From Oscillospiraceae bacterium (GTDB lineage: Bacteria > Bacillota > Clostridia > Oscillospirales > Oscillospiraceae): a DNA stretch of 22,453 bases. The stretch is taken from positions 1 to 22,453 of the forward strand of contig JAITGH010000124.1 of the NCBI GenBank assembly GCA_031280855.1, written 5' to 3'. Numbering within the stretch: the stretch's first letter is position 1; every line of letters begins with the position of its first letter. A program made the translations under genes and the position numbers. Below the pieces are notes generated by a model that was not told the DNA's origin, did no database searches, and worked only from the letters and a program-made list of their open reading frames with translations. Shown here piece by piece: positions 15,030 to 18,711 of this stretch.

Positions 15030-15415
15030 TGACAATGTATTGAGCCGCGGGGGTTTACGAGGGATTAGGGTATATATTGGGACGTTACGGTGGTTTGGTA
15101 CGTTTGATAATACATATATGTTTACGGTGGTTTGGTACGCGACTTTTTTGTAAAAAAGTCGACAAAAAACTTTTACATACCATTCATAGATGGAAACTAA
15201 GGAGCCCTTAAGGCTCCTTAGTTTCGTGGTAGAGGGAAGTAACGTAGCTTGCCGATTATGCAGAGGTGTGAAGCTTCGTAGCTTGACGGTTATGCCGATC
15301 TTAAGTTGCCTTAAGGGCAACTTAAGATCCCTCTATGAATGGTATATAAAAGTTTTTGTCAAACTTTTTTCAAAAAGTTTGCGTTCCTAACCCCCGCGTC
15401 TCAACACATTGTCAG
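15030..15415. repeat. Palindromic repeat element A (same family as 18411-18711)
   Basis: The outer ends are inverted copies: TGACAATGTATTGAGCCGCG (from 15030) against CGCGTCTCAACACATTGTCA (ending 15415). Inside, each arm carries a T/A-rich hairpin. The left one, CGACTTTTTT-GT-AAAAAAGTCG (15140-15161), is matched on the right by CAAACTTTTTTCAAAAAGTTTG (from 15360), then ACATACCATTCATAGA pairs with CTATGAATGGTATA. Central hairpins are AAACTAAGGAGCC (15194-15206)/GGCTCCTTAGTTT (15212-15224) and GATCTTAAGTTGCC (15297-15310)/GGCAACTTAAGATC (15316-15329). Bases 15297-15387 match 18598-18688 with a single difference. No real gene is seen in 14965-15427; weak frames crossing it are by-products of the repeats. 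Confidence 0.85.
15085..15139 (+). repeat. 18-bp direct repeat inside the left arm of element A
   Basis: TTACGGTGGTTTGGTACG occurs at 15085-15102 and again at 15122-15139 (period 37 bases). The extra unit makes the left arm of element A longer than its right arm, consistent with a secondary duplication or insertion. Confidence 0.75.
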
Positions 15416-15427
15416 AACCCTCGTAAC

Positions 15428-16471
15428 TTACAAAGAGTAGAAGTCGTGGTTACCGATAGAGACGACGAAGACGCAATTTTTGATGATCCACTTACTGGCG
15501 GCGATTTTGGCGTTAAGGAAGAAGAGGCTTTGCCCGGCGATGTCAGCGCCGTCGAGAGCGAGTTTAGCGGCGATGACGGCGTTTTTGGTAGGATCTTTAT
15601 AAATAGTGCCGTTGGAGGCGGGGGTGAACTGGACTCCGCCGGTGCGGTCGAAGATGACGCCTTTGATGGTATCCGGGTAGCCTTTCGCGGCGGCGCGGTT
15701 AAGCACGACGTTACCGACGGCGATTTGACCTTTGAGCGATTCGCCTCGAGCTTCTGCGGAGATAATGCGAGACAGCCAGTAGAGGTCGGTCTCGTCGTAG
15801 AAGTCGTCGCCGGACTCGAGCGGGGTAGTGCCGCGCCTCACGTCGATGCTTTGCGAGGACTCGAACCAGACGCAGTCGGCGCCGAACGCTTTGGCGAGTG
15901 TACGGACGGGGACGAAAGTCAAGCCCTCGTGCACTACTGCGCCGCCGGGTATGTACAGGTAACGCCCGTTGGCGACTATGTAGGGATCGGCGACGTTAAG
16001 TGTGAATGAGATGGGCGGCGAGGCGACGGTTACGGTTTGAGTCTCGCCGTCCCAGGCGACTGAGACACCCTCGCCCATGACGGAGCAGAACTCGCGCAGT
16101 TGGACGTAGGTGATCCCGTCGTGGAGGATCGAGGTACCGGCGTACGGTTTCCCGTCGATAGTCAGAGGGACGACGGAGTCGGACGGGTCGAGCAACAGCG
16201 GACTGCCTGACGGCGCGGGCGACGCGGGAGTTACGGACTCGTCCTCCTCGAGGAGGAGGTTGGGATTGGCGAGCGGAGTCTCCTCATCGGGGATATCGAG
16301 CTCGGCGGGGGAAGCCTCGGGCGCGGCGGTCACCTCGGGCGCGGCGGTCGCGGTAGGCACGGCGGACGCGAGTTCGGGCGGCTCGGAATCGCTTGCGGCG
16401 AACGCCGCGCTTACGGGTGCGATCGTCAGCACCAGCAATATGACTAAGACGGAATAGATTCGGTGAAGCAT
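15428..16471 (-). CDS. Exported cell-wall hydrolase: copper-amine-oxidase-type domain plus SleB-type hydrolase domain
   Basis: A 347-residue exported protein. Residues 1-26 are a signal peptide ending APVSAAFAA; 27-95 form an Ala/Pro/Glu-rich linker; about 100-215 form the copper amine oxidase N-terminal-like domain common in clostridial surface proteins (TIDGKPY...TYVQLREF...FVPVRTLAKAFG); about 228-345 form the SleB/CwlJ hydrolase domain. The catalytic Glu is E240 in IISAEARGES, followed by GQIAVGNVVLNR and a GVQFTP segment. SleB-type enzymes act as lytic transglycosylases on cortex or cell-wall peptidoglycan; the added domain suggests a cell-surface role, not necessarily germination. Start: ATG with AAAGGAGAG upstream, and a near-consensus promoter at 16575-16603. 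The stop sits about a dozen bases from repeat element A. Confidence 0.88.
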   Translation of the reverse strand: MLHRIYSVLVILLVLTIAPVSAAFAASDSEPPELASAVPTATAAPEVTAAPEASPAELDIPDEETPLANPNLLLEEDESVTPASPAPSGSPLLLDPSDSVVPLTIDGKPYAGTSILHDGITYVQLREFCSVMGEGVSVAWDGETQTVTVASPPISFTLNVADPYIVANGRYLYIPGGAVVHEGLTFVPVRTLAKAFGADCVWFESSQSIDVRRGTTPLESGDDFYDETDLYWLSRIISAEARGESLKGQIAVGNVVLNRAAAKGYPDTIKGVIFDRTGGVQFTPASNGTIYKDPTKNAVIAAKLALDGADIAGQSLFFLNAKIAASKWIIKNCVFVVSIGNHDFYSL

Positions 16472-16574
16472 GGAGGACTCTCCTTTACAAGGGTGAGAGT
16501 AAAGTCGATGAGATACGACCGGCTTACAAACGGTTACAATGTTGAGCTAAGCGCTCTGTTTTCTGACTTACCAT

Positions 16575-16768: not shown

Positions 16769-18341
16769 CGCTTATCTCAAGCTTCGCGTCCGGATTGCCC
16801 GTTCCGTCCGCGTACGAGACGGTGACCGTAGTCTTGCCCGCCATGCGTCCCGTTATCTTCAGCGACGTGTCGGTTATCGACAGGAACTCGCCCCACTCCG
16901 CGACCGCGACGACGTTGTCCAGAACGTGGAACTGCATGGAGACGCTGCCCGGGCTGTCGCGAGTTATGACGATCTCGGCGGTACCGCCCTCCGCGATGGT
17001 GACGCTTAGCTTATCGGCGGTGAGCGTGGACTTCAAGTTCAGCTCCTCGTCCTCGTCGGCGGCTTGCTTGACGGAGATCCCCGGCGCGGTAAGCGCGTCG
17101 GCGGGCAGGAACTTCACGGGCACCGCGATGTTCAAGTCGTTACCGTTGATGTAGGCTCCGCGAATTACGCCGACCGCCTCGCCATAGCGGTTCAGCAGGA
17201 CTCCGCCGCTGGAGCCTTGCGAGACCTGCGCGGAGAACTGGATCTCCGGGTAGCCGGAATTCGCGCCGAACGAGTCGCGAAGCTTCGTCGCCACTATGCC
17301 GCTCGACATACTATCCGTCAGCCCCAGCGGACTGCTTAGCGCGTAGATCGGCTCGCCCACGTTAAGCAAATCGCTGTCGCCAAGCGGGATAAACGGGAAC
17401 GCGGAGACCGCCGCTCCGTCCGCGTCCGTCTTCCCGACGCGGATAAGCGCGAGGTCACGCCAGCCGTCGCGCCACAGCACTTGAACGTCCTTGAACACGC
17501 GCCCGTCCGTCAGCTTGATTTGCATATACGGGCGGCGCTCAATCGCGTGGTAAGAGATAAGCGCGAGCCCGTCCGCAGAGAAGAAGAATCCGCTCGCGCT
17601 CGCGTCCGGCGTACCGGCGATAAGGCGCTCCTCGGTGTTGAAGACCTCCATGAAGAAGGTGGCGGCGGAGCCGCGCCGGTACAGCACCTCCGGGTCGTAC
17701 GTCGGCTTGCCGTAGTTCGCGTAGCCCGCGAACGAGGTATCGCGAAGCGACTCGCGAGCTATCACTCCGTCCGCAACCAGACGCTGGACTAGTATCGCGT
17801 CGCCGCCGTTAACCTTCGTGATCAGCGCGTTGAACGCGAGAGTAACCGCGTCGCCGCGAGTAAGCCGGTCTCCGCCGTCATATGTAAGCCCGAGCGAATC
17901 GGCGAACTTGACGGAATGCGCCCAGTCGAAATCGCCCGGCTCGCTGTAGCCCAACGCTCGTAATAGTAACGTCAGCCAGTCGCGCTCGGACAGCGAGTTC
18001 CGTGCTCCCAGCGAGTCGCCCGTCGCGCCGTTAACCAGACCTCGAGCGTAGGCGTTCGCAACGTAGCCCTGCGCATACGCGTCAACGTCCTTGAACTGCG
18101 AACGCTGAGTCGAGTCCGCGATCCCCAGCAGTCTGCACAGCAGGATAACTCCGTCCTGCTTGGTCAGCGGCTTGTCAAGCATGAAGTCTCCGTCAGCGTC
18201 GCCGTTCAGCAGTCCGAGCTTGGCGAGCGTCTCCGCCGCGCCCTCCGGCGTGATAATCGCGGCAGAGCCGCTAATCGGCAGTGCGATCGCAATCGCAACC
18301 GCAATCGCAACCAGCGCGGCAGTCAGTCGTTTGATGGTCAT
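16755..18341 (-). CDS. Exported SLH-domain trypsin-like (S1C/HtrA-type) serine protease with Ig-like C-terminal domain
   Basis: A 528-residue exported protein. Residues 1-28 are a signal peptide (hydrophobic Ala/Ile/Val run, LPISGSAA). Residues about 32-205 contain S-layer-homology-like repeats (KLGLLNGDADGDF..., FKDVDAYAQGYVANAYARGL..., LTRGDAVTLAFNALI), which usually bind secondary wall polymers. Residues about 225-415 form a trypsin-like protease domain with a full triad: H265 in ISYHAIE, D296 in WRDLALI, S378 in SQGSSGGVLLN. No PDZ domain follows; instead about 430-528 resemble a bacterial Ig-like (BIG2-type) fold ending YADGTGNPDAKLEISVTVR. Start: ATG with AAGGAG nine bases upstream. It is likely a wall-attached protease or processing enzyme. 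Both flanking intergenic stretches contain unusual repeats. Confidence 0.88.
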   Translation of the reverse strand: MTIKRLTAALVAIAVAIAIALPISGSAAIITPEGAAETLAKLGLLNGDADGDFMLDKPLTKQDGVILLCRLLGIADSTQRSQFKDVDAYAQGYVANAYARGLVNGATGDSLGARNSLSERDWLTLLLRALGYSEPGDFDWAHSVKFADSLGLTYDGGDRLTRGDAVTLAFNALITKVNGGDAILVQRLVADGVIARESLRDTSFAGYANYGKPTYDPEVLYRRGSAATFFMEVFNTEERLIAGTPDASASGFFFSADGLALISYHAIERRPYMQIKLTDGRVFKDVQVLWRDGWRDLALIRVGKTDADGAAVSAFPFIPLGDSDLLNVGEPIYALSSPLGLTDSMSSGIVATKLRDSFGANSGYPEIQFSAQVSQGSSGGVLLNRYGEAVGVIRGAYINGNDLNIAVPVKFLPADALTAPGISVKQAADEDEELNLKSTLTADKLSVTIAEGGTAEIVITRDSPGSVSMQFHVLDNVVAVAEWGEFLSITDTSLKITGRMAGKTTVTVSYADGTGNPDAKLEISVTVR

Positions 18342-18410
18342 CTTTGGATACTCCTTAGAATAGTAATTAGGAATTAGGGGACGCGAGGGGGGTACGAGAG
18401 TTTTGGGTTA

Positions 18411-18711
18411 TGTATTGGGACGTTACGGGGGTTAGGAACGCAAACTTTTTGAAAAAAGTTTGACAAAAACTTTTATATTGGGTGCTGTGGTCTACTCAAA
18501 CTTTCACTGGGGTCTCTGCGCCTACGGAGGGAAACTGTGAAGTTCCGTTACTTCACAGTCGGTGTAAGTGTGAAGCTTTGTTGCTTGACACTTACACGAT
18601 CTTAAGTTGCCTTAAGGGCAACTTAAGATCCCTCTATGAATGGTATGTAAAAGTTTTTGTCAAACTTTTTTCAAAAAGTTTGCGTTCCAAACCCCCGTAC
18701 GTCCCAATACA
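18411..18711. repeat. Palindromic repeat element B with about 65-bp terminal inverted repeats
   Basis: The left arm TGTATTGGGACGTTACGGGG... (18411-18476) is the inverted copy of the right arm ending ...ACGTCCCAATACA (18648-18711) with only a few differences. Each arm contains a T/A-rich hairpin (CAAACTTTTT...AAAGTTTG). Between them lie three hairpins: ACTGTGAAGT/ACTTCACAGT (18534-18559), GTGTAAGTGT/ACACTTACAC (18562-18597) and GATCTTAAGTTGCC/GGCAACTTAAGATC (18598-18630). Bases 18598-18688 match element A at 15297-15387 with one difference. The outer module TGYATTGRGACGTACGGGG recurs again at 18731-18750 in inverted form. The gap 18342-18755 holds no gene. Confidence 0.85.

Follow-up and report, generated by a model that had tools for sequence, protein, structure and literature searches.

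The window analysed here is a stretch of 22,453 nucleotides from an Oscillospiraceae bacterium (assembly GCA_031280855.1, contig JAITGH010000124.1, positions 1 to 22,453 of the forward strand; contig C193 in our numbering). The genome is a 1.28-Mb draft, which is 64% complete and comprises 212 contigs. Two palindromic elements lie between the genes of the window. Element A lies 13 nt behind the stop codon of a SleB-like gene, and element B separates a radical-SAM gene from an SLH/trypsin-like gene, its high end overlapping the last codons of the radical-SAM gene. A and B belong to a family of nested palindromic repeats that is dispersed through this genome, and a solitary module of the same kind resides within an ISL3-family transposase gene. 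The modules, termed E, H1, H3, H4-type and M2, are arranged as follows (basis in brackets).

15026 to 15418, no strand: element A, two inverted half-units (end, G/C-rich spacer, H1, linker, H3) around a centre with H4-type sequence (sequence, inverted repeats, shuffles, fold).
15029 to 15047, plus strand: left outer end motif E of A, with 1 mismatch to TTGACAATGTATTGAGACG (pattern search, up to 3 mismatches).
15140 to 15161, plus strand: H1 hairpin in the left half of A, CGAC/GTCG arm version (sequence, shuffles).
15193 to 15225, plus strand: H3 hairpin of A, AAACTAAGGAGCC version, with 14-bp arms and a 5-nt loop (H3 model).
15236 to 15296, no strand: centre of A, two imperfect H4-type repeats of the GAAGT/CTTGACGG type (direct repeats).
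15297 to 15329, minus strand: H3 hairpin in the right half of A, GATCTTAAGTTGCC version (models).
15360 to 15381, minus strand: H1 hairpin in the right half of A, CAAAC/GTTTG version (covariance model, shuffles).
15397 to 15415, minus strand: right outer end motif E of A, with 2 mismatches (pattern search).
18382 to 18777, no strand: element B, a composite of the same modules as A in inverted half-units (BLAST clusters, gene context, sequence).
18441 to 18462, plus strand: H1 hairpin in the left half of B (sequence, shuffles).
18534 to 18559, no strand: hairpin ACTGTGAAGT/ACTTCACAGT of B, H4-like and fused to an apparent H3 start (sequence, shuffles; no match to the H3 model).
18562 to 18597, no strand: H4-type hairpin of B, GTGTAAGTGTGAAGC/GCTTGACACTTACAC, 93% complementary (inverted repeat).
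18598 to 18630, minus strand: H3 hairpin in the right half of B, GATCTTAAGTTGCC version (models).
18661 to 18682, minus strand: H1 hairpin in the right half of B (covariance model, shuffles).
5757 to 5784, minus strand: solitary M2 module (GGCTAATATGGGTGCAGCGTCACGCTGC) within the ISL3-family transposase gene at 5307-6116, minus strand (model R3, protein alignment, Pfam DDE_Tnp_ISL3).

An earlier note, made from the letters of this DNA, had ascribed to A and B a shared core of 91 bp with one difference; the core measures 92 bp and indeed contains a single difference (15296-15387 versus 18597-18688), and over a longer span of 101 bp the elements differ at 2 positions. The arm pairs quoted there are present in the sequence. 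The bounds given for B (18411-18711) were too narrow, as related sequence in the BLAST clusters extends from 18382 to 18777. A short repeat like GAATAGTAATTAGGAATTAGGGGA borders B at 18356-18382 and is also found near another element, in the flank of the one on contig C202. Perfect hairpins with arms of at least 9 bp number four in A (15140-15161, 15193-15225, 15297-15329 and 15360-15381) and four in B (18441-18462, 18534-18559, 18598-18630 and 18661-18682). Among 1000 dinucleotide shuffles of each element, 994 (A) and 997 (B) lacked any such hairpin, and the remainder had one. Folded as single-stranded DNA, A is predicted to form a single long branched hairpin of -93.8 kcal/mol, compared to -38.3 +/- 4.0 kcal/mol for 100 shuffles (z -13.8).

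The differences between the hairpins of A and B had been explained by paired base changes on both arms. Base-level compensation does occur across the family, as outlined below, but part of the contrast between A and B is an exchange of whole hairpin modules, because the H3 model matches B at 18588-18639 alone and not at the hairpin 18534-18559. The latter is not clearly the counterpart of the hairpin at 15193-15225 in A.

The family is represented by many copies. Element A retrieved 89 BLAST matches in its own genome, and A and B together defined 36 element clusters on 26 contigs in a search limited to the contig stretches matched by A. A genome search and a covariance model, the checks proposed at the outset, thus revealed a multi-copy family. 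A half-unit is composed of the end E (TTTGACAATGTATTGAGACG or variants), a G-rich spacer, H1 (CAAACTTTTTGAAAAAAGTTTG or CGACTTTTTTGAAAAAAGTCG), ACAAAAACTTTTACAT, one of several linkers, GGAGG and H3 with its 14-bp arms and 5-nt loop, often followed by GGTAG and the module M2 (GGCTAATATGGGTCCGGCGTCACGCCGG). In A and B two half-units face each other with H4-type repeats in between. Overall, five or more small palindromic modules combine into mosaic elements, in which they occur singly or as inverted pairs; half-units, M2 and E are also seen alone. The smallest palindromes consist of two E ends (C105:2815-2887) or are of an E-H1 type (on C115 and C211). Arrays of M2 with a 51-bp period are present on contigs C172, C183, C132, C154 and C63 (loci L073, L061, L076, L081 and L064), with two or three copies in each fetched stretch. 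Contig C18 (1499-1951; L059) carries two tandem copies of a stretch of approximately 191 bp that includes H1, M2 and two H3 hairpins.

Individual modules were traced by pattern and model searches. The E motif has 23 sites in the genome (up to 3 mismatches), compared to 1 for the reversed control. The covariance model R1, spanning H1, linker and H3, was built from 17 of 24 H1-H3 units, leaving out five with linker inserts and two without a left H1 arm (when the units were collected, 9 of 33 H1 anchors had no H3); with at most 104 first-look candidates scored per genome, R1 detected 38 half-units in the own genome, whereas 39 other genomes, including five from the same genus, gave none. The M2 model R3, built from 36 of 37 copies after omission of a truncated one, yielded 43 matches in the own genome and none in 29 others, with up to 150 candidates scored per genome. 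The H3 model matched 40 sites in the own genome, gave 7 weak matches (28-34 bits) in the same-genus genome G005 and none in 11 further genomes, and the 101-bp core had one weak match each in 4 of 59 other genomes. Two of the matches in G005 (L207 and L209) were rejected as H3, since they represent a separate hairpin sharing GCC-CTTAT-GGC; a script did not find such a hairpin at the other five (L199, L201, L203, L205 and L211). G005 harbours at L207 and L209 its own repeated, terminator-like hairpin, AAAATCCGCGAGCC-CTTAT-GGCTCGCGGATTTT.

Comparison with related genomes indicates where units are present or absent. At the site of B, the radical-SAM and SLH/trypsin-like genes of G005 overlap by 4 nt (ATGA, the stop codon being its TGA), whereas the window has 414 bp including B. 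At the site of A, four sister species (G001, G002, G004 and G005) have a short sequence without the unit, which by eye looks terminator-like. In G003, the position of A behind the SleB-like gene (contig C85 near 28617-28641; L162) is taken by a sister repeat that carries CCGCC/GGCGG as its arm and also has a GC hairpin. Scans for the H1, E and M2 motifs in ten same-genus stretches found none. The M2 module in the ISL3-family transposase gene lies within an in-frame insert of 54 bp (about 5748-5801), corresponding to 18 residues, which is present in none of the 19 homologues aligned out of 852 found. The open reading frame of this transposase, at 269 amino acids, is shorter than most of the homologues listed. 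Elsewhere in the window, positions 382-670 of the minus strand, which lie antisense to the urease alpha gene, match the Rfam family 5_ureB_sRNA (RF02514) with 87.5 bits against a cut-off of 40.

Placement relative to genes was assessed with a crude gene finder for 35 of the 36 clusters, leaving out C132:1110-1144. Of these, 21 are located in tandem gaps, 6 in convergent and 5 in divergent ones, 3 are at contig edges, and none is centred in a predicted gene; B and the clusters on C183 and C98 overlap gene ends by up to 21 nt. Gap type is not telling, because a further 38 gaps in these stretches comprise 21 tandem, 7 convergent and 10 divergent ones. In the 21 tandem gaps, 16 clusters are nearer the upstream stop codon and 4 nearer the downstream start, with one tie (p 0.012, tallied by eye). 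As an example, the element at C149:3540-3854 (L072) lies between same-strand genes of the MoeA and MoCF_biosynth families, a pair that may belong together.

A preference for stop codons might be expected from a structured RNA at the 3' ends of mRNAs, acting as a stabiliser, a processing signal or a bidirectional terminator-like structure and kept by selection after the repeats had spread. The 16 of 20 untied tandem placements agree with such a role, as does the position of A directly behind SleB, where the four sisters have their terminator-like sequence, and the mismatches in H3 point to one strand (A.C versus G.T 8:1, p 0.039). In M2, however, the mismatches lean the opposite way (G.T 3, A.C 1), 5 of the 35 clusters are located in divergent gaps, and within the elements Rfam gives sub-threshold microRNA hairpin models and no family above threshold. 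At six other loci, ten Rfam matches were obtained, all below the family cut-offs. Terminator function was discarded, since by eye no T run follows H1 or H3 of A and B. We regard the RNA explanation as unlikely.

The earlier note had considered the layout suited to a miniature inverted-repeat transposable element (MITE) or to a structured RNA family. The MITE-like, or REPIN-like, half of this proposal agrees with the anatomy described above; the RNA half is without backing from Rfam, and the wobble evidence points both ways. Classical MITEs would be internal-deletion derivatives of an insertion sequence (IS), with a DDE transposase recognising the outer E ends. The outer inverted ends (TTTGACAATG...CATTGTCAAA) and the minimal two-E palindrome on C105 are as expected of such elements. 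Against this stands that other sequences can take the place of the E ends whereas H1 is retained, and that target duplications, for which the earlier note had advised inspecting the flanks, were by eye seen neither at A nor at B. Moreover, the 19 proteins adjoining elements, a set that does not extend to the genes beside all 23 E sites, include no transposase and belong to ordinary cellular families, apart from one domain of unknown function and one protein without a family. An autonomous IS bounded by E ends was not noticed in the four E-bearing loci read for one. Classical MITEs are thus quite an unlikely explanation.

Related sequences occur well beyond this genome. An exact 26-base H1 string is found in nine other records, on 18 contigs in total (uncultured Ruminococcus, Eubacteriales and Eubacteriaceae metagenome-assembled genomes (MAGs), Firmicutes CAG:94 and two Defluviitaleaceae MAGs), which we take to be Clostridia of gut, rumen and termites. 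Most copies printed from these consist of a GC hairpin (GGGGCTCTGCCCC or GAGGCTCTGCCTC type), a C-rich run, H1 and then ACAAAAACTTT or a close form. A 35-base pattern of core and tail (up to 3 mismatches) has 97, 35, 35, 31, 25, 4, 4, 2 and 1 matches in these nine genomes, 23 in the own genome and none in G003; the reversed pattern has none in all 11 genomes. In nearly all copies listed, the arms differ and yet are complementary, as in CAAAC/GTTTG, CGAAC/GTTCG, CCAAC/GTTGG, CCGCC/GGCGG, AAGCC/GGCTT, GACCC/GGGTC and others; several are mispaired, such as CAAAC/GTTCG and CTAAC/GTTGG, and one mispaired version is listed for the own genome. A looser H1-type pattern matches 8 of 119 genomes, own included, and reaches 148 matches in G111, a relative of the same order whose 2.4-Mb genome is 99% complete. 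Searches for a plasmid or phage origin of A gave no match, and viral contigs contain no exact copy of the 26-base H1 core.

The matching of the arms was quantified within hairpin families. In 32 copies of H3, 93.1% of the cells are paired compared to 71.6% in shuffles, and both-side changes have occurred at 11 of the 14 base pairs, affecting 87 cells versus 27.3 in shuffles. None of 500 shuffles was as high in pairing, both-side changes or covariation score, and pairing falls to 27-45% when the partner is slid by 1-3 columns. In M2, 3 of 6 pairs have changed on both sides (10 of 500 shuffles were as high), and no shuffle out of 500 equalled its covariation score. The stem differences are therefore compensatory beyond chance.

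What keeps the arms matched is a separate question. On the unit strand, H3 shows 1 cell changed on one side and 87 on both sides, compared to 12 and 56 in tRNA stems (Fisher p 0.0002, although the cells do not represent independent events). For this small control, the acceptor stem and the T stem were used in 14 tRNAs of fetched loci (14 of 16 distinct ones passed the pairing filter). If the opposite H3 strand is counted, 8 wobble pairs change the ratio to 8:87 and the contrast with tRNA to p 0.09. G111 has a second palindrome with arms like TTCAAAATAGTCC (25 stretches; L321-L335 and L338-L347), in which 12 of 16 distinct arm pairs are perfectly matched and one-side and both-side changes number 0 and 32 (Fisher p 0.008 versus tRNA stems, again for cells that are not independent events). 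The 16 pairs remained after 3 of 21 distinct rows had been dropped as unrelated and loop-only variants merged.

Template switching between arms can yield paired changes in one step (PMC8794818). Paired changes might thus arise without any selection on folding, if template switching rewrites one arm from the other and neutral palindromes stay paired while drifting. The near lack of one-side intermediates in H3 and in the G111 palindrome, compared to the 12 in tRNA stems, fits this process, and alleles differ by several pairs at once. The wobble pairs on the complementary H3 strand, with which the contrast to the small tRNA control is no longer significant, count against it, and template switching explains neither the fixed core and tail across bacterial families nor the copy number. 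As a complete explanation it appears somewhat unlikely. Nevertheless, arm copying at the DNA level fits the one-side and both-side counts at least as well as selection on RNA does, and template switching probably helps to keep the arms matched. The A.C mismatches that prevail in H3 on the unit strand would be G.U on the opposite strand; this bias was dropped as proof of an RNA, as the 8:1 of H3 is opposed by 1:3 in M2. Selection on folding, which the paired changes had originally been taken to suggest, may have contributed: the paired changes are real, but template switching can also produce them, and several differences between A and B are swaps of whole modules.

Taken together, we consider it fairly probable that the family of A and B spread as non-autonomous, REPIN-like mobile DNA (repetitive extragenic palindromic (REP) doublets forming hairpins), with a candidate mover encoded elsewhere and a single-stranded hairpin intermediate. 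This reading draws on the many copies in one species, their modularity, the matched arm changes, the empty orthologous sites, the in-frame gene insert and the placement near stop codons. Movement would be catalysed in trans, and the hairpin form would be what the mover recognises. The arms may stay complementary partly through template switching, in which replication would overwrite one arm with a copy of the other, and partly through the loss of mobility that unpaired copies would suffer.

Several results weigh against mobility of this kind. The location near stop codons would be compatible with a role at the ends of mRNAs as well, and no target duplication was visible by eye in the flanks of A and B. 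The number of further pair types is not above shuffles (88 of 500 for H3, 295 of 500 for M2), and a frequent H3 allele keeps two adjacent mismatches, T.C and C.T. The Y1_Tnp domain (PF01797) of REP-associated tyrosine transposases (RAYTs) has no match in the own genome, and it is absent in 9 and present in 6 of 15 carrier genomes. A RAYT was therefore rejected as the general mover, and as far as these genomes show, the mover is other than the Y1/RAYT transposase of known REPINs.

The elements could still be REPINs proper, if a Y1 RAYT were encoded in the missing third of the genome or had disappeared once the repeats were dispersed. The REPINs of PMC3116915 are likewise inverted doublets whose spacer hairpins show compensatory changes, six of the 15 carriers have a Y1_Tnp match, and a lack of the tnpAREP gene in genomes with REPs has been described and attributed to gene loss (PMC6006769). 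Opposed to this, Y1_Tnp was not found in G111 with its 148 matches despite 99% completeness, nor in G063 (35 matches) or G067 (25), and, counted by eye, only 10 of 37 copies of M2 have GTAG in the 14 nt that precede them. We therefore judge this variant very unlikely and maintain the reading of REPIN-like DNA moved by another enzyme. More tentatively, and with considerable doubt, the A/T-core hairpins with their CRAAAACTT tail could form a Clostridia-wide REP-like superfamily with lineage-specific complementary arms, mobilised by a non-Y1/RAYT class of mover and numbering dozens to hundreds per genome under arm-to-arm copying.

Literature searches of open papers found no description of this repeat family, and four sequence strings representing the core and a GC hairpin were not found in the open papers searched. 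The words Firmicutes and Clostridi- are absent from the main texts of both the REPIN paper (PMC3116915) and the tagged-REP paper (PMC3733652). The latter indicates that REP-like repeats have been described mainly in Proteobacteria. The same anatomy in uncultured Clostridia, at counts reaching 97 matches per genome there and 148 in G111, and without Y1 in 9 of 15 carriers, raises the question of what moves these repeats. Many described REP-like repeats occur together with RAYT transposases. The family also offers large within-genome sets of hairpins for counting compensatory change, and it carries a warning: mobile palindromic DNA can give rise to covariation, which usually serves as the proof that an RNA structure is functional.

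Among known systems, MITEs resemble the present elements in being non-autonomous and intergenic, with inverted ends and copies in one species. The present elements differ in their modular interior, in that a partner IS was not found, and in that inspection of A and B by eye revealed no target duplication. Very small nested units and insertion into a gene recall the small dispersed repeats of cyanobacteria and the palindromic elements of Rickettsia. REP-type repeats without a Y1 enzyme in the same genome have been reported (PMC6006769); there the absence is explained by loss of the enzyme, whereas here it is missing in 9 of 15 carriers, so that loss alone would have to be repeated. The CGTC-tagged REP families likewise lack a dedicated transposase (PMC3733652); given these two precedents, the missing enzyme alone is not new. 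The GTAG- and CGTC-tagged REPs and the bacterial interspersed mosaic elements (BIMEs) treated in the same source share with A and B mixed-type dimers, placement behind genes and insertions inside genes. The present modules differ from them in the constant tetranucleotide foot, which the count of GTAG before M2 did not bear out.

The closest likeness is to the REPIN/RAYT system of Pseudomonas fluorescens (PMC3116915). That work describes short extragenic palindromic units, single or in inverted doublets and in many copies, clusters, tandem arrays, units inserted in units and compensatory changes in spacer hairpins, which the authors themselves found to be common. The elements described here share with REPINs the inverted doublet forming a long hairpin, the copy number, the extragenic position (with one M2 in a gene) and the spacer compensation. 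They differ in the absence of Y1/RAYT from their own genome and from a 99% complete carrier, in at least five module types nested per element and in an A-tract hairpin core whose CRAAAACTT tail is fixed. The elements are not filed as REPINs, because a Y1 transposase was not found in their own genome; by analogy, they appear to work like a REPIN/BIME mosaic.

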